From positions 48,611 through 112,610 of the forward strand of contig JALQCY010000009.1 in NCBI GenBank assembly GCA_023241745.1: a DNA stretch of 64,000 nt, given 5' to 3'. The notes under the pieces were generated by a model that was given only the letters and a program-made list of their open reading frames with translations, was not told the DNA's origin and did no database searches. Shown piece by piece: positions 1,256 to 37,663 of this stretch. Every line of letters begins with the position of its first letter. Position 1 is the stretch's first letter. Both the position numbers and the translations under genes were made by a program. The stretch is from Isoptericola peretonis. GTDB taxonomy: Bacteria; Actinomycetota; Actinomycetes; Actinomycetales; Cellulomonadaceae.

Positions 1256-2548
1256 ATGCCAGCCGTGGTGCTCGTCGGTGCCCAGTGGGGCGATGAGGGC
1301 AAGGGGAAGGCCACGGACCTGCTCGGGTCCCGGGTCGACTACGTCGTGAAGTTCAACGGCGGCAACAACGCGGGTCACACCGTCGTCATCGGCGACGAGA
1401 AGTACGCGTTGCACCTGCTGCCGTCCGGCATCCTGTCGCCCGGCGTCGTCCCGGTGATCGGCAACGGCGTGGTCGTGGACATCGACGTGCTGTTCGAGGA
1501 GCTCGACGCCCTCATCGAGCGAGGCGTGGACGTCTCCCGCCTGCTGGTCTCGAGCCAGGCGCACGTCATCGCCGGGTACCACCGCACGCTCGACAAGGTC
1601 ACCGAGCGCTTCCTCGGCAAGCGCCGCATCGGCACCACGGGGCGCGGCATCGGGCCGGCGTACGCCGACAAGATCAACCGCGTCGGCATCCGCATCGCCG
1701 ACCTGTTCGACCCCAAGATCCTGCGGGAGAAGGTCGAGGGCTCCCTCGACCAGAAGAACCACCTGCTGGTGAAGGTCTACAACCGCCGCGCGGTCGAGAT
1801 CGACGAGACGGTGGACGAGCTCCTCGCCCATGCCGAGCGGCTGCGCCCGATGGTCGCGAACACCCCGCTGGTGCTGAACCAGGCGCTCGACGCCGGCAAG
1901 AACGTGCTGTTCGAGGCCGGCCAGGCCACCATGCTCGACATCGACCACGGCACCTACCCGTTCGTCACGTCGTCGAGCGCGACCGCTGGCGGCGCGGTGA
2001 CCGGCTCGGGCATCGGGCCCACCCGCGTGGACTCCGTCATCGGCGTCATCAAGGCGTACACGACGCGCGTGGGAGAGGGCCCGTTCCCCACCGAGCTCTT
2101 CGACGACATGGGCGAGTACCTGCTGAAGACGGGCGGCGAGTACGGCGTCACCACGGGCCGCGCGCGCCGCTGCGGCTGGTACGACTCCGTCATCGCGCGC
2201 TACGCGGCGCGCATCAACGGCCTCACCGACCTCGTGGTCACCAAGCTGGACGTGCTCACCGGCCTGGAGAAGGTGCCGGTCTGCGTGGCGTACGACGTGG
2301 ACGGCACCCGCTACGACGAGATGCCGGACGACCAGTCGGCGTTCCACCACGCCAAGCCGATCTACGAGGAGATGCCCGGCTGGTGGGAGGACATCTCCAC
2401 CGCCCGCAGCATCGAGGACCTGCCGGCCAACGCCCAGGCGTACCTCGCGCGGCTCGAGGAGCTGTCGGGCTGCCGCATCTCCGCGGTGGGCGTGGGCCCG
2501 CGCCGCGACGAGATCATCCCGGTGCACGACCTGATCCACGCGCGCTGA
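1256..2548 (+). CDS. purA: Adenylosuccinate synthetase
   Basis: This 430-residue enzyme condenses IMP with aspartate using GTP to form adenylosuccinate, the first committed step from IMP to AMP. The N-terminal WGDEGKGK P-loop (residues 11-18) carries the catalytic Asp, and [10 protein letters not shown] follows with the catalytic His. [10 protein letters not shown], the SSSATAGGA region and [12 protein letters not shown] are further family signatures. Length is normal for the bacterial enzyme. The GTG of the next gene lies one base after the purA stop, so the two are probably translationally coupled. Confidence 0.98.
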
Positions 2549-33175: not shown

Positions 33176-33904
33176 TCACCCCCGGCCGGCCCTCGCGACG
33201 AACACGCGTTCCAGCCCGGGCCGGTCGGGCGCGTCACGGACCTGCTCGACGGTGTATCCGGCCGCCGCGAGCGACGCCTCGACCTCGTCGTGGCCGCGGA
33301 ACCGGAGGGTCGAGTCGGAGTGCAGCTCGCGACCGTCGGGGAGCACGAAGGTGTCGTGGAAGGTCACGAACGGCTCCGACACCTCCGTCACGTCGGTCCA
33401 CGACTCGACGACGCCGAGGCCGGGCACGTCGGTCCGCGCGAAGGTGCGCTCGCGGGTCCATCCCTCCCACGCCCGCCGGGCGGGGTCGCGGGTCTCGAGG
33501 ACGAGGTGACCTCCCGGGGCGAGCGCGGCGCGGACGCCGCCGAGCGTGGCGGCCCACGCGTCGTCCGTGAGGAACACCTGCGCCACGTTCCCCGTCATGG
33601 TCGCGAGGTCGACCTGCAGGGGCGGGAGGGTGGTGGCGTCGCCGAGCAGCCAGCGCACCCGTCCGGCGTCCGGCTTGCCACGGGCGACGTCCAACGACGC
33701 CGCGGCCGGGTCGACGCCCACGACGTCGAGGCCGGCCGACGCGAGCAGCACGGCGAACGTGCCCGTGCCGCACCCGACGTCGAGCACGCTGCGGGCGCCG
33801 AGCTCGTGGGCGAGCGCGAGATAGGCGTCGAGGTCCCCGCGGTCCGGGTCGCGCGGGTCGTACAGCCGGGCGAGCGTGGGGTCGGCGAAGAGCAAGTCGG
33901 GCAT
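33176..33904 (-). CDS. Class I SAM-dependent methyltransferase
   Basis: The 242-residue protein has motif I SVLDVGCGTGTFAVLLASAG near residue 40 and motif II VVGVDPAAASLDVARG. A TMTGNVAQVF stretch, LAPGGHLVLETRDP and the substrate-domain segment SEPFVTFHDTFVLPDGRELH follow. It resembles small-molecule methyltransferases; the acceptor is unknown. ATG 33904 is chosen because TACGGT ends exactly six bases before it, although an open frame extends 26 codons further into the hairpin. It converges on the MDR oxidoreductase with an 8-base gap. Confidence 0.9.
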   Translation of the reverse strand: MPDLLFADPTLARLYDPRDPDRGDLDAYLALAHELGARSVLDVGCGTGTFAVLLASAGLDVVGVDPAAASLDVARGKPDAGRVRWLLGDATTLPPLQVDLATMTGNVAQVFLTDDAWAATLGGVRAALAPGGHLVLETRDPARRAWEGWTRERTFARTDVPGLGVVESWTDVTEVSEPFVTFHDTFVLPDGRELHSDSTLRFRGHDEVEASLAAAGYTVEQVRDAPDRPGLERVFVARAGRG

Positions 33905-33916
33905 GCAGCGACCGTA
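33905..33916 (-). promoter_or_regulatory. Predicted leaderless methyltransferase promoter
   Basis: On the minus strand TACGGT (33916 to 33911) is followed by six bases and ATG 33904, with no Shine-Dalgarno. Confidence 0.55.
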
Positions 33917-33931
33917 GTCCTCGTTCCGGCG

Positions 33932-33991
33932 GCCGAACATGTGGTTGTGGCCCGTCAGCGTCGACTGACGGGCCACAAGCACATGCTCGGC
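33932..33991 (-). terminator. Terminator hairpin of rhodanese-metZ
   Basis: A 27-base arm (33932-33958) pairs with 33965-33991 with only two mismatches and a six-base loop cgtcga. On the minus strand it begins 17 bases after the metZ stop. Confidence 0.85.
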
Positions 33992-34007: not shown

Positions 34008-35291
34008 TCAGGCGCGCAGGGCCTGCTCGACGTCCTCGAGGATGTCGCGCGGGTCCTCGAGCCCGATCGACAGGCGCACCGTCGTCTCGGCGATGCCGAC
34101 CTTGGCGCGGCCCTCGGGGCCGAGCTTGCGGTGCGTCGTCGTGGCGGGGTGCGTGATGATCGACTTCGCGTCGCCGAGGTTGTTGGAGATGTCGATGATC
34201 TGCAGGGCGTCGAGGAAGGCGAACGCGCGCTTCTTCGCCGCCTCGGGCTCGGTGCCTTCGGGCACGGCGAGGTCGAACGTCACGACCGTGCCGCCCCCGG
34301 ACTGCTGCGACCTCGCCAGCTCGTGCTGCGGGTGCGACGGCAGATAGGGGTAGCGCACGGCCGCGACGTCGGCGAGGCCCTCCAGCGCCGTCGCGATCTC
34401 GAGCGCGGCGGCGTTCTGCGCGCGCACCCGCAGGTCGAGCGTCTCGAGCCCCTTGGACAGCACCCAGGCGTTGAAAGGGCTGAGCGACGGTCCGGTGTTG
34501 CGGATGAAGGTCTGCACCGGGCCCGTGAGGAACTCCCGCGACCCGAGGATGGCGCCACCGAGCACGCGCCCCTGGCCGTCGATGTGCTTCGTCGCGGAGT
34601 AGACGACGATGTCGGCGCCGAGCGTGAGCGGCTGCTGGAGGATCGGCGTGGCGAACACGTTGTCCACCACCACCTGCGCGCCCGCGGCGTGGGCCAGCCC
34701 GGCCACGCGCCGCACGTCCACCAGGTCCTGCATGGGGTTGGACGGCGACTCGAAGAAGACGACGTCGGCGGGCGTCGCGAGCGCCTCCTCCCACTGGGAC
34801 AGCACGTGGCCGTCCACGTAGTCGACCCGCACGCCCCACTTGGCGAGGATCTCCTCGTAGATGACGTTCGTGGAGCCGAACAGCGCCCGCGCCGACACGA
34901 TCCGGGAGCCGCTCGAGACCAGCGCGGCGAGCGTCGTGAAGACGGCCGACATGCCGGACGCCGTCGCGTAGCAGGCCTCCGCGCCCTCGAGGAGCCGCAG
35001 CCGTTCCTCGAACGTGTGCACCGTGGGGTTGCCGTACCGGGAGTAGACGAACCGGGTGAGGTCGCCCGAGAAGGACGCCTCGGCATCGGCGGCAGAGTCG
35101 TAGGTGTAGCCCTGCGTGAGGAACAGCGCCTCGGAGGTCTCCTGGTACTCCGACCGGCGGTGCCCGCCGCGGACGGCGAGCGTCGCGGGACGCGCGGTGG
35201 CGGGCAGCGGCCCGCGGCCGGAGCCGCCGTGGACGACGTCGTCGGCGGCGGGGCCGGTGGGGATGCCCCGGTCCGCGTACGAGCCGCTCAC
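34008..35291 (-). CDS. metZ: O-succinylhomoserine sulfhydrylase (cystathionine gamma-synthase family)
   Basis: The 427-residue PLP enzyme of the Cys/Met metabolism family would make homocysteine from an O-acylhomoserine and sulfide. Signatures are FVYSRYGNPTVHTFEERL, ACYATASGMSAVFTTL, VFFESPSNPMQDLVDV, VVDNVFATPILQQPL, and the PLP lysine in VVYSATKHIDGQGRVLGGA. LRLSIGLED closes the fold. The pairing with an upstream rhodanese favours MetZ over MetB, but substrate choice is inferred. GTG 35291 overlaps the rhodanese stop (GTGA), so it depends on rhodanese translation and thus on the S-box riboswitch in the leader. Confidence 0.93.
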   Translation of the reverse strand: MSGSYADRGIPTGPAADDVVHGGSGRGPLPATARPATLAVRGGHRRSEYQETSEALFLTQGYTYDSAADAEASFSGDLTRFVYSRYGNPTVHTFEERLRLLEGAEACYATASGMSAVFTTLAALVSSGSRIVSARALFGSTNVIYEEILAKWGVRVDYVDGHVLSQWEEALATPADVVFFESPSNPMQDLVDVRRVAGLAHAAGAQVVVDNVFATPILQQPLTLGADIVVYSATKHIDGQGRVLGGAILGSREFLTGPVQTFIRNTGPSLSPFNAWVLSKGLETLDLRVRAQNAAALEIATALEGLADVAAVRYPYLPSHPQHELARSQQSGGGTVVTFDLAVPEGTEPEAAKKRAFAFLDALQIIDISNNLGDAKSIITHPATTTHRKLGPEGRAKVGIAETTVRLSIGLEDPRDILEDVEQALRA

Positions 35292-35773
35292 GCCCGGGAC
35301 TCCGCGGTGGTGCCCTCGGCGGCGGACGCGGGCGCGTACTCGCCCCAGGGCAGGCCGCGCACCTTCCAGCCCTCGCGGTCGCGCACGCCGTCGAAGCCAG
35401 GGCCACCCTCGAAGCCCTCGAGGACGTTGTACGACGGCCCCAGGCCGGAAGCGGTCGCGAGGCGCGCCGCGCCGATGGAACGCTGGCCGGAGCGGCACAG
35501 GAACACGATCGGCCGGTCCGCGGTCACGCCCGCGGCGGCGAGGTCGGCGAGGAAGCCTGCGTTCGGGCGCCCGCCCGCCTGCACCCACTCGACGAGGACG
35601 GGGGCCTTGCCGGCCGCCGCGGTGTCGGGGACGCCGACGGCACGCCACTCGCCCTCGGTGCGCACGTCCACGAGGACGGCGTCGGGGTCGGCGGCGAGCA
35701 GGTCCCACGCCTGCTGCGGGGTGAGGTCGCCGGCGTACCCGTCGGCGGGGCGGGGGTCGATCTGGGTGCTCAT
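35288..35773 (-). CDS. Rhodanese-like sulfurtransferase
   Basis: This 161-residue single-domain rhodanese has DAVLVDVRTEGEWRAVGVPD and the active loop IVFLCRSGQRSIGAARLA with the persulfide Cys93. NVLEGFEGGPGFDG near the C terminus is typical of actinobacterial forms coupled to metZ. It may deliver or receive sulfane sulfur near the sulfhydrylase; this is inference from context. ATG 35773 follows GGGAGGA. That Shine-Dalgarno overlaps the 3' strand of the S-box P1 stem, so binding of SAM should block initiation. Confidence 0.93.
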   Translation of the reverse strand: MSTQIDPRPADGYAGDLTPQQAWDLLAADPDAVLVDVRTEGEWRAVGVPDTAAAGKAPVLVEWVQAGGRPNAGFLADLAAAGVTADRPIVFLCRSGQRSIGAARLATASGLGPSYNVLEGFEGGPGFDGVRDREGWKVRGLPWGEYAPASAAEGTTAESRA

Positions 35774-35783
35774 CGCAGTCCTC

Positions 35784-35892
35784 CCATCGGTCGTGGCGGT
35801 AGCACCCTCGTCCGGTGGGCCGCCGTCAACCGGCGACCGCCCGCGGGTTGCTGCGGCGTCGACGTGCCACGTCACTCGGCCGCTCGGGATGG
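35784..35892 (-). promoter_or_regulatory. SAM-I (S-box) riboswitch before rhodanese-metZ
   Basis: Read on the minus strand, CCATC (35892-35888) pairs with GATGG (35788-35784) as P1. Within it lie CGAGCGGCCGAGTGACGTGG (P2 5' half with the kink-turn GA), GACGCCGCAGCAACC (3' half of P2 and conserved GCAACC, 35851-35846), a cgccg/cggcg P3 hairpin (35834-35820), and GGTGCTA (35806-35800). These are the S-box core elements in order. The last P1 bases are part of the Shine-Dalgarno GGGAGGA, implying translational control without a separate terminator. I am less sure of exact P3/P4 pairing. Confidence 0.85.
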
Positions 35893-35900
35893 TCACGGCG

Positions 35901-35931
35901 ATCGTACGACAGCCGTCCGCCTGGTGGTCAC
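35901..35931 (-). promoter_or_regulatory. Promoter of the rhodanese-metZ transcript
   Basis: On the minus strand TACGAT (35906-35901) is a strong -10, with GTGACC (35931-35926) 19 bases upstream as a weak -35. Transcription would start near 35894, just at the 5' edge of the S-box. Confidence 0.65.
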
Positions 35932-36030
35932 CCCGTCTCGCGGGCCGGTCCGCCGCCGTCCGCTCGCCTTCTTCCGGTGAGCGTCGGGGCAGGCCCGCGT
36001 CCCACATGTCAAGAGGACACCGCCCACGGC

Positions 36031-36059
36031 TTGACACCCTCGGGCGTGCTCCCGACGAT
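36031..36059 (+). promoter_or_regulatory. Promoter of the SAM-IV transcript
   Basis: Consensus TTGACA (36031-36036), a 17-bp spacer and GACGAT (36054-36059). The start site near 36066 falls at the first bases of the SAM-IV aptamer. Between this and the divergent promoter (35932-36030) I see nothing recognisable. Confidence 0.7.
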
Positions 36060-36063
36060 GGAT

Positions 36064-36185
36064 CCAGGTCATGAGTGCCAGCGCGAAGCCCCGGCTCGCT
36101 GGCCGGCAACCCTCCTCTCGCGGCGGGGTGCCCCGGGTGACGACCTGGCCCCGCGCCGTCCGGCGCGCGGGCAAGCGCGGGGAGC
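36064..36185 (+). promoter_or_regulatory. SAM-IV riboswitch before the class V aminotransferase
   Basis: P1 is ccaggtc (36064-36070) with gacctgg (36142-36148). Inside are the SAM-IV core strings CATGAGTGCCAGCG, AAGCCCCGGCTCGCTGGCC, GGCAACCCTCC and GGGGTGCCCCGGGTGACGAC, nearly identical to the actinobacterial SAM-IV pattern as I recall it. P2 is gccagcg/cgctggc. The SAM-IV-specific 3' hairpin and pseudoknot partner follow P1: gcgccgtccggcgc and then GGGCAAGCGCGGGG. The Shine-Dalgarno gaggagg (36204-36210) lies 20 bases beyond, within reach of sequestration. Confidence 0.93.
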
Positions 36186-36217
36186 CACCTCCCCGGCACC
36201 ACCGAGGAGGATCACGC

Positions 36218-37663
36218 ATGACCACGCTCATCACCGAGCCCGCGGCGCAGGCCGCCCCGGCGCCCGCCACCGTCCACGACGTCCCGCCCGTGCTGCCCGT
36301 CGTCGGCGCGGACACGCTCGTGCCGCTCGTCGACGGCCGCCAGGTGCCCTACGCCAACCTCGACGTCGCGGCGTCCGCTCCCGCCCTGCAGGCGGTCGCC
36401 GACCGCGTCTCGCGAGTCCTGCCCCTGTACGCCAGCGTGCACCGCGGCGCCGGCTACCTGTCCCAGGTCTCGACCGCGCTCTACGAGACGGCGCGCCGCA
36501 CCGTCGGCACGTTCGTCGGCGCCCGGGACGACGACCTGACGATCGTCACCCGCAACACGACCGACTCCCTGAACCTGCTCGCGGGCTGCGTGCCCGCCGA
36601 CCCGGTGACCGGGGAGCGCGGGCGGGTGCTCGTGCTCGACATCGAGCACCATGCCAACCTGCTGCCCTGGCAGCGCGTCACCGACGCGACCGTCGTGACC
36701 GGCGGCCCGACCGTCTCCGCGACCCTCGCCGAGATCGAGGAGGAGCTGCGGTCCGCCGCGGTCGCCGGCCGTCCGTACGCCCTGCTGGCCCTCACGGGCG
36801 CCTCCAACGTGACCGGTGAGGCGCTCCCCGTGGCGGACGTCGTCGCCGCGGCGCACGGCGCGGGAGCCCGCGTCGTGCTGGACGGCGCACAGCTGGTGCC
36901 GCACCGCCGCTTCTCGCTCGCGGAGACGGGCGTCGACTACGTCGCCTTCTCGGGCCACAAGACGTACGCCCCGTTCGGCGCCGGCGCCCTCGTGGGACGC
37001 CGTGACTGGCTCGACGCCGGCACCCCGTACCTCGCGGGCGGGGGTGCGGTGCGCCGCGTGCGCACCGCGAGCACCGACTGGCACGAGGGACCCGCGCGGC
37101 ACGAGGCGGGTTCCCCCAACGTCATCGGCGCGGTCGCGCTCGCGGCCGCGTGCGACGAGCTCGCCGCGCTGGACCCCCGGGCCGCCGCCCGGCACGAGGA
37201 CGCGCTGCGACGCCGGCTCGTGGACGGTCTCGGGGAGATCGACCGGGTCGAGGTCGTGCACGTCTGGGACGACGCCGTGGACCCCGTCGGCGTCGTGACC
37301 TTCACGGTCTCCGGCTACGACCCGGGCCTCGTCGCCGCCTACCTGTCCGCCGAGCACGGCATCGGCGTGCGCGACGGGCGGTTCTGCGCGCACCCCCTGC
37401 TGGGCCGCCTCGGGTTCGACGCCGGGGCGGTGCGCGCCTCCGTGGGCCTCGGCACCGCGGGCGAGGAGGTCGAGCGGCTCGTCTCCGCCGTCCGGTCGCT
37501 CGTCGACGAGGGGCCGCAGGCGCGCTACGACGTCGTCGACTCCCTGTGGGTCGTGGTGGACGACCCGCGACCGGTGCCCGAGGGCTCCGGCCTCGAGGGG
37601 CTGCTCGCGACGGCCGCGCTGGGCGCGGACGAGGCCTTCGGCTGCCTGCCCGACGACCTCTGA
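36218..37663 (+). CDS. Class V aminotransferase / SufS-like cysteine desulfurase family protein
   Basis: The 481-residue PLP protein has SVHRGAGYLSQVSTALYE, TIVTRNTTDSLNLLA, DIEHHANLLPW, RVVLDGAQLVPHRRF and the PLP lysine K248 in AFSGHKTYAPFGAGALV. A cysteine sits in the SufS-like loop position, C390 in VRDGRFCAHPLLGRLG. This fits a cysteine desulfurase or selenocysteine-lyase-like enzyme able to mobilise sulfur as a persulfide. A tail of about 50 residues (DSLWVVVDDPRPVPEG onward) extends beyond SufS. Control by a SAM-IV riboswitch and divergence from rhodanese-metZ place it in methionine/sulfur metabolism. No suf or isc genes adjoin. Confidence 0.88.
   Translation: MTTLITEPAAQAAPAPATVHDVPPVLPVVGADTLVPLVDGRQVPYANLDVAASAPALQAVADRVSRVLPLYASVHRGAGYLSQVSTALYETARRTVGTFVGARDDDLTIVTRNTTDSLNLLAGCVPADPVTGERGRVLVLDIEHHANLLPWQRVTDATVVTGGPTVSATLAEIEEELRSAAVAGRPYALLALTGASNVTGEALPVADVVAAAHGAGARVVLDGAQLVPHRRFSLAETGVDYVAFSGHKTYAPFGAGALVGRRDWLDAGTPYLAGGGAVRRVRTASTDWHEGPARHEAGSPNVIGAVALAAACDELAALDPRAAARHEDALRRRLVDGLGEIDRVEVVHVWDDAVDPVGVVTFTVSGYDPGLVAAYLSAEHGIGVRDGRFCAHPLLGRLGFDAGAVRASVGLGTAGEEVERLVSAVRSLVDEGPQARYDVVDSLWVVVDDPRPVPEGSGLEGLLATAALGADEAFGCLPDDL

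Follow-up and report, generated by a model that had tools for sequence, protein, structure and literature searches.

The 444-base region between the start codons of a rhodanese-metZ unit and a gene for a SufS-like cysteine desulfurase in Isoptericola peretonis holds two predicted aptamers of the SAM clan that face outward, a SAM-I-type aptamer leading into rhodanese-metZ and a SAM-IV aptamer leading into the SufS-like gene. As the preliminary description of this DNA had it, the region spans positions 35774-36217 of the window (the whole stretch of 64,000 nucleotides that was analysed), between ATG codons at 35773 on the minus strand and 36218 on the plus strand. The central claim of that description, two SAM-clan classes pointing away from each other at one locus, was borne out by an RF00634 match of 98.8 bits on the plus strand and a significant RF00162 match on the minus strand, the lack of which would have counted as its refutation. 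We think it likely that the region is a divergon in which two separate SAM-sensing leaders control the rhodanese-metZ and SufS-like arms.

The genes on both sides belong to sulfur metabolism. On the minus strand lie the rhodanese gene (35288-35773; PF00581), with a CRSGQRS loop, and metZ (34008-35300, start position approximate), assigned to O-succinylhomoserine sulfhydrylase by NF005870 at 718.6 bits against a cut-off of 618. A gene with a methyltransferase domain (33176-33982, minus strand) lies 25 nt past metZ and may share its operon. On the plus strand, the SufS-like protein (36218-37663; PF00266) has the class V aminotransferase fold and SGHK and RFCAHP motifs, and scored 279 bits with TIGR01979, under the cut-off of 475.1; its nearest named relatives are from Krasilnikoviella and Isoptericola (93% identity). 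The rhodanese loop and the two motifs of the SufS-like protein are presumably active-site motifs.

Each aptamer has a candidate promoter directly before it. For the plus unit this is TTGACA-17-GACGAT (36031-36059, plus strand), which ends 7 nt upstream of the SAM-IV aptamer, and for the minus unit a -10-like TACGAT (35901-35906, minus strand), which ends 8 nt upstream of P1. Neither was reported by a strict sigma-70 scan. Among 27 divergon loci, however, a -35-like TTGA or TTGC stands 35-37 nt upstream of SAM-IV in all 27 (a count made without a shuffle control), and a -10-like TANNN(T/C) begins 14-15 nt upstream of P1 in 25, compared with 13% in shuffles. Given this conserved spacing, transcription of each RNA probably begins at its own aptamer. 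The earlier statement that each aptamer lies within a few bases of its own predicted start site agrees with these positions. A strict scan for intrinsic terminators found none in either leader.

Some other sequences between the promoters drew our attention. A TGAGACNNNCGTCCC box that looked conserved among Isoptericola relatives gave no lead: allowing at most one mismatch, it occurs in 24 places in the genome of I. peretonis itself (the reversed pattern in 6), none of them within the intergenic region. At one locus (L036) an operator-like inverted repeat, GGGACGGGCATCTC...GAGATGCCCGTCCC, lies between the promoters, and a second (L037) has matching changes; by eye, only GTCTC at 35935-35939 remains of it in the window. 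Another inverted repeat, TGTCAAG (36007) and CTTGACA (36030), spans the -35 element of the plus promoter.

The plus-strand RNA is clearly a member of SAM-IV as judged from its sequence. It had been placed at 36064-36185, and the RF00634 match runs from 36067 to 36183, far above the gathering score of 38 bits (E 2.3e-18 in 2 kb, cmscan). The match is full-length (model positions 1-116), includes the P5 hairpin after P1 and has no P4; the fold is supported by the Rfam score. Complementarity suggests a PK-2 between UCGCG in the P3 loop (36118-36122) and CGCGG (36176-36180). Downstream, a putative expression platform (36179-36210) would consist of a GGGGAG/CUCCCC hairpin competing with a CCUCC:GGAGG pairing that takes up the Shine-Dalgarno sequence (36204-36210). 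By minimum free energy the two stems swap in 7 of 18 genus sequences, in a test that by construction strips bases from one stem; the window's own sequence gave no swap, and its Shine-Dalgarno sequence had a predicted openness of 0.25 when the two shared Gs were present and of 0.20 when they were left out. A switch between alternative stems may exist here, with weak support and none from folding of the window's own sequence.

The minus-strand RNA scores lower. A scan of the window at Rfam gathering level returned SAM-IV only, and the RF00162 match on the minus strand (35767-35895) has 38.3 bits against a gathering score of 44.4, with E values of 1.3e-6 in 2 kb (cmscan) and 7.1e-7 in a search of the whole genome; it is thus significant and yet under the curated cut-off. 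The only other RF00162 match in the genome, at 51.4 bits, lies upstream of a gene that we recognised as metF-like by reading its protein. The 3' end of the metZ-side match looks wrong, with P1 paired to sequence past the start codon. A closure by CCAUC (35892-35888) and GAUGG (35788-35784), as first suggested in the preliminary description, fits better and delimits an aptamer at 35784-35892, which scored 86.3 bits with R1, our own model, whose training set includes the window's copy.

Within these limits most parts of a SAM-I aptamer can be recognised on the minus strand. P2 is split into P2a, GCGGC/GCCGC (35883-35879/35857-35853), and P2b, GUG/CAC (35875-35873/35866-35864), and between them lies a SAM-I-like internal loop of 3+6 nt with GA on both sides, resembling a K-turn; the loop residues G16, A17, G33 and A34 are invariant in 29/29 family sequences. 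P3 (35801-35852) comes with GCAACC and GGUGC and has a tip that is long and variable in Isoptericola. The loop of P2b contributes the 5' strand of PK-1, CGUGG (35867-35871), and its 3' strand, CCACG (35792-35796), lies in the usual place of P4. Between GGUGC and GAUGG there are only 13 nt, five of which are used by PK-1, and P4 is missing. The same segment is 12-15 nt long in 87/87 aligned copies, again without room for P4, although this alignment consists of R1 matches only and R1 is itself P4-less. The 3' strand of P1 extends into the Shine-Dalgarno sequence GGGAGGA (35779-35785). No P5 hairpin follows P1, and PK-2 is not evident. In four loci with a P4-less SAM-I and an extended P3 (L001, L020, L023 and L034) the P3 tip conserves GGAAGCCTCC despite varying flanks, and its CUCC could pair with the GGAG of the Shine-Dalgarno sequence just after P1, in the manner of PK-2.

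These features can be compared with the classes as described in PMC6890682. There, a P4 and a kink of six nucleotides are given for SAM-I; SAM-IV is without P4 and carries P5 and PK-2; and SAM-I/IV combines a P4 with a P2 that is not split, and lacks PK-1. With SAM-I (S box, RF00162) the minus RNA shares P1, P2a/P2b with the 3+6 nt loop, P3, PK-1, GCAACC and GGUGC, and a ribosome-binding site at P1; it differs in the absence of P4, in a score that lies under the gathering score in the genus, and in the 3' strand of PK-1, which is several nucleotides farther from GGUGC than in the SAM-I consensus. With SAM-IV it shares the core, PK-1 and the lack of P4, but not P5 or a recognisable PK-2, and no RF00634 match at E<=10 was found at 35784-35892 (150 of 2396 first-look candidates scored), so membership in RF00634 was rejected. 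SAM-I/IV shares the common ligand core according to the literature; we rejected membership in RF01725 as well, since the genome has no match to that model at E<=10. By the strict definition of RF00162, the minus RNA falls short in score and in P4, and has the K-turn-like P2a/P2b loop and PK-1. The S-box-type aptamer of the earlier reading is thus not a textbook SAM-I. On sequence grounds SAM-I is the class nearest to this RNA, for which P4-less SAM-I is the most fitting name.

Covariation across Actinobacteria supports P1, P2a, P2b, P3 and PK-1 of the minus RNA. In the 29 family sequences on which R1 was trained, 95.8% of the cells pair in register, compared with 30-58% when the strands are slid, and 22 cells have changed on both sides, compared with a shuffle mean of 7.8. 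For double-change pairs (4 seen, 3.9 on average in shuffles) and further pair types (8 seen, 9.6 on average in shuffles) there was no excess over shuffles, because most columns are invariant; GCAACC, GGUGC, the AUC/GAU of P1 and many core columns do not vary at all. We therefore turn to a wider alignment of 87 R1 matches, 86 of them distinct, for which we chose 84 loci in the family, order, phylum and named sets. For the nested structure, to which this alignment was fitted and which is thereby favoured, 95.7% of the cells are paired (26-58% when slid), double-sided changes occur in 12/21 pairs (shuffle mean 7.0), and there are 130 doubly changed cells (30.3) and 30 further pair types (20.9); none of 500 shuffles reached counts as high. 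Changes on both sides were seen in 5/5 P2a pairs, 1/3 P2b pairs and the outer pair of P1 (CG 69, UA 12, AU 1, GC 1, UG 1), with the inner P1 pairs almost invariant.

PK-1 was left out of the alignment fit, and the loop letters were right-justified before its pairs were counted. Among the 86 sequences, its third pair is UA in 70, CG in 5, UG in 3, AU in 2 and GC in 2, and its fourth CG in 71, GC in 7, UG in 2, UA in 1 and GU in 1, each with 4 unpaired; the fifth is paired in 74/86. Pairs 1-4 together have 336 paired cells, whereas 2000 shuffles gave 305.5 on average and never more than 315; in register 97.7% are paired, compared with 24-66% when slid.

Both aptamers are found throughout the genus, with matches to RF00634 and to RF00162 in 18/18 genomes each. 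At E<=0.01, RF00162 detected the metZ-side copy in 17 of these genomes; in the eighteenth (L045) we located it with a regular expression. All 17 copies found with RF00162 score under the gathering score (24.6-42.4 bits), and annotation at that cut-off would therefore miss them. Rhodanese-metZ leaders of other genera that are within the 30 highest-scoring RF00162 loci of the family have 56-64 bits (for example L006 64, L018 59.0, L024 57.5, L025 57, L029 56.5 and L033 56.1), and all of these 30 loci, three of which are identical copies, fit a regular expression without room for P4.

The survey of related genomes for co-occurrence that had been proposed showed that the pairing is not unique to I. 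peretonis. Among 44 family genomes from 25 genera, R1, with which the census leans to P4-less forms, has matches in 41, RF00634 in 41, and both have matches in 40. In 28 of the 44 genomes and 18 of the 25 genera a SAM-I and a SAM-IV lie divergently at a distance of 89-321 nt, and in 4 further genomes the two lie 1.0-2.8 kb apart. The pair regions that we fetched, from 15 genera and including one 2.8 kb case, have metZ-rhodanese and SufS-like partners in 16/16. R1 matches were found in 74 of 149 genomes in a sample of the order and, at E<=1e-5, in 62 of 198 in a sample of the phylum.

The two modules also exist apart. Our named loci are the 80 best among 445 relatives of the SufS-like protein. 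Of these, 76 have SAM-IV upstream of the SufS-like gene, and at least 18 have a divergent SAM-I within the 2.5 kb upstream that was covered. These 18 are from Isoptericola, Promicromonospora, Antribacter, Cellulomonas, Timonella and Jonesia; 14 of the SAM-I aptamers are 113-337 nt from SAM-IV and 4 are 0.9-2.3 kb off. One of the 18 is cut by the end of its locus, and we left out of the count one more match, which is weak (L268, E 0.006). The claim that the two RNAs were acquired independently agrees with these figures. From other families we took 36 regions that lie upstream of SufS-like genes (L153-L188, two shortened by contig ends). SAM-IV was present in 32 of them, all but L157, L158, L166 and L167. 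Four of the 36 (L153, L185, L186 and L187) have a SAM-I nearby in divergent orientation, all from one genus of family f14, and in L186 the SAM-I arm leads genes whose proteins read as metF and metE. Genomes of f14 have up to 13 R1 matches each, for example G272. We also came across divergent SAM-IV/SAM-IV pairs, in L155 at 1435-1547 (minus) and 1659-1769 (plus), between a SufS-like gene and a gene whose protein reads as an LLM-class flavin oxidoreductase, and in G041 at 77978-78365 of contig 2. The SAM-IV-SufS unit is found widely and is probably old. With a second SAM-I/SAM-IV divergon in another family, with metF-metE-like partners, the SAM-I unit has probably become the divergent neighbour of SAM-IV at least twice.

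Both RNAs would most likely act as SAM OFF switches; we infer SAM binding, the OFF logic and action at the level of translation. Transcripts from each promoter would start right at the 5' end of the aptamer that it serves. At high SAM levels the minus RNA would fold into a minimal SAM-I type, with P1, a kinked P2a/P2b, P3 and PK-1 but no P4, and the P1 stabilised by the ligand, which ends inside the Shine-Dalgarno sequence of rhodanese-metZ, would block initiation. The plus RNA would fold as SAM-IV, and its 3' pseudoknot region adjoins alternative stems that may be able to hide the Shine-Dalgarno sequence of the SufS-like gene. Together, the two RNAs would close a sulfur module of cysteine desulfurase, rhodanese and O-succinylhomoserine sulfhydrylase, which would feed homocysteine, methionine and SAM. 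A relay of sulfur from cysteine via a persulfide and rhodanese to MetZ, if real, would explain why one signal is common to both arms. As judged by eye, 26 of the 27 divergon loci (all but L029) have the Shine-Dalgarno sequence directly next to P1; in the window the two overlap by only 1-2 nt. For Streptomyces clavuligerus, PMC8269248 describes a premature transcription unit that contains the SAM-IV leader of a class V aminotransferase gene; this points to transcriptional control in that organism and counts against translational action.

A different explanation for the arrangement would be that the pair has been selected as a unit, with differing affinities or kinetics through which each arm would close at a SAM level of its own, in a graded shut-off. 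Its presence in most of the sampled genera and the second divergon in f14, with other partner genes, speak for such selection. We nevertheless consider it unlikely, because SAM-IV/SAM-IV pairs, one in a genome of another family and one at a second locus of a family member, indicate that two classes are not required, because many named SAM-IV-SufS loci have no SAM-I in the 2.5 kb upstream, and because the pair is not always close: besides the 4 family genomes with wider spacing, in G243 (L169) SAM-I-rhodanese-metZ and SAM-IV-SufS are separated by roughly 1.6 kb and by a further gene. It is still less probable that the minus RNA no longer prefers SAM and that the loss of P4 has shifted its ligand, for example to S-adenosylhomocysteine. 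Its low RF00162 score, the missing P4 and a segment between P3 and P1 that is unlike the RF00162 consensus are compatible with such a shift, but the ligand-core motifs and the AUC/GAU of P1 are invariant in 29 sequences, and copies lead rhodanese-metZ as well as genes reading as metF or metF-metE. That the minus element is a chance or decayed match, as its score below the Rfam cut-off in the I. peretonis genome might suggest, is hardly credible and was rejected in view of the covariation of its nested pairs and PK-1, the orthologues over the RF00162 cut-off in other genera and the R1 matches in nearly all family genomes.

Two SAM-sensing leaders on divergent mRNAs, our preferred reading, can be set beside several known systems. 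Tandem SAM-II/SAM-V and SAM-II/SAM-I-IV riboswitches likewise combine one locus, one ligand and two classes, but they lie in series on one mRNA (PMC9481103), whereas the window's pair lies on two divergent mRNAs; the words "divergent" and "opposite strand" do not occur in the text of that source. Streptomyces lividans has both classes in one genome and a SAM-IV before a cysteine desulfurase gene, but its SAM-IV and SAM leaders are listed at separate loci and not as a divergent pair (PMC8079986). In Mycobacterium avium a SAM-clan leader also precedes a gene for a homocysteine-forming enzyme, O-acetylhomoserine sulfhydrylase (PMC3774663); there it is a SAM-IV, whereas metZ in the window has a SAM-I type. 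A SAM-IV before cysteine desulfurase and the presence of both classes in one genome are thus already in print. In the portion of the open-access literature that we covered, we found neither a divergent pairing of SAM-I with SAM-IV nor a SAM-I without P4, which is no proof of absence.

More tentatively, and with somewhat less than even confidence, we propose that the P4-less SAM-I, with P1, P2a/P2b, P3 and PK-1 only, may represent a fourth SAM-clan architecture and the common SAM-I form of the family, perhaps of Actinobacteria, acting on translation via P1 and paired at least twice with SAM-IV in a divergon of one ligand and two folds. For annotation, the data mean that the Rfam cut-off for SAM-I misses well-supported leaders in the genus Isoptericola. 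For the riboswitch itself, they suggest that the P4 helix, although part of the standard model of SAM-I, is dispensable if PK-1 is kept. At this locus nature would set two RNA solutions for one ligand side by side in the same cell, an arrangement that has been kept in most of the sampled genera of the family.
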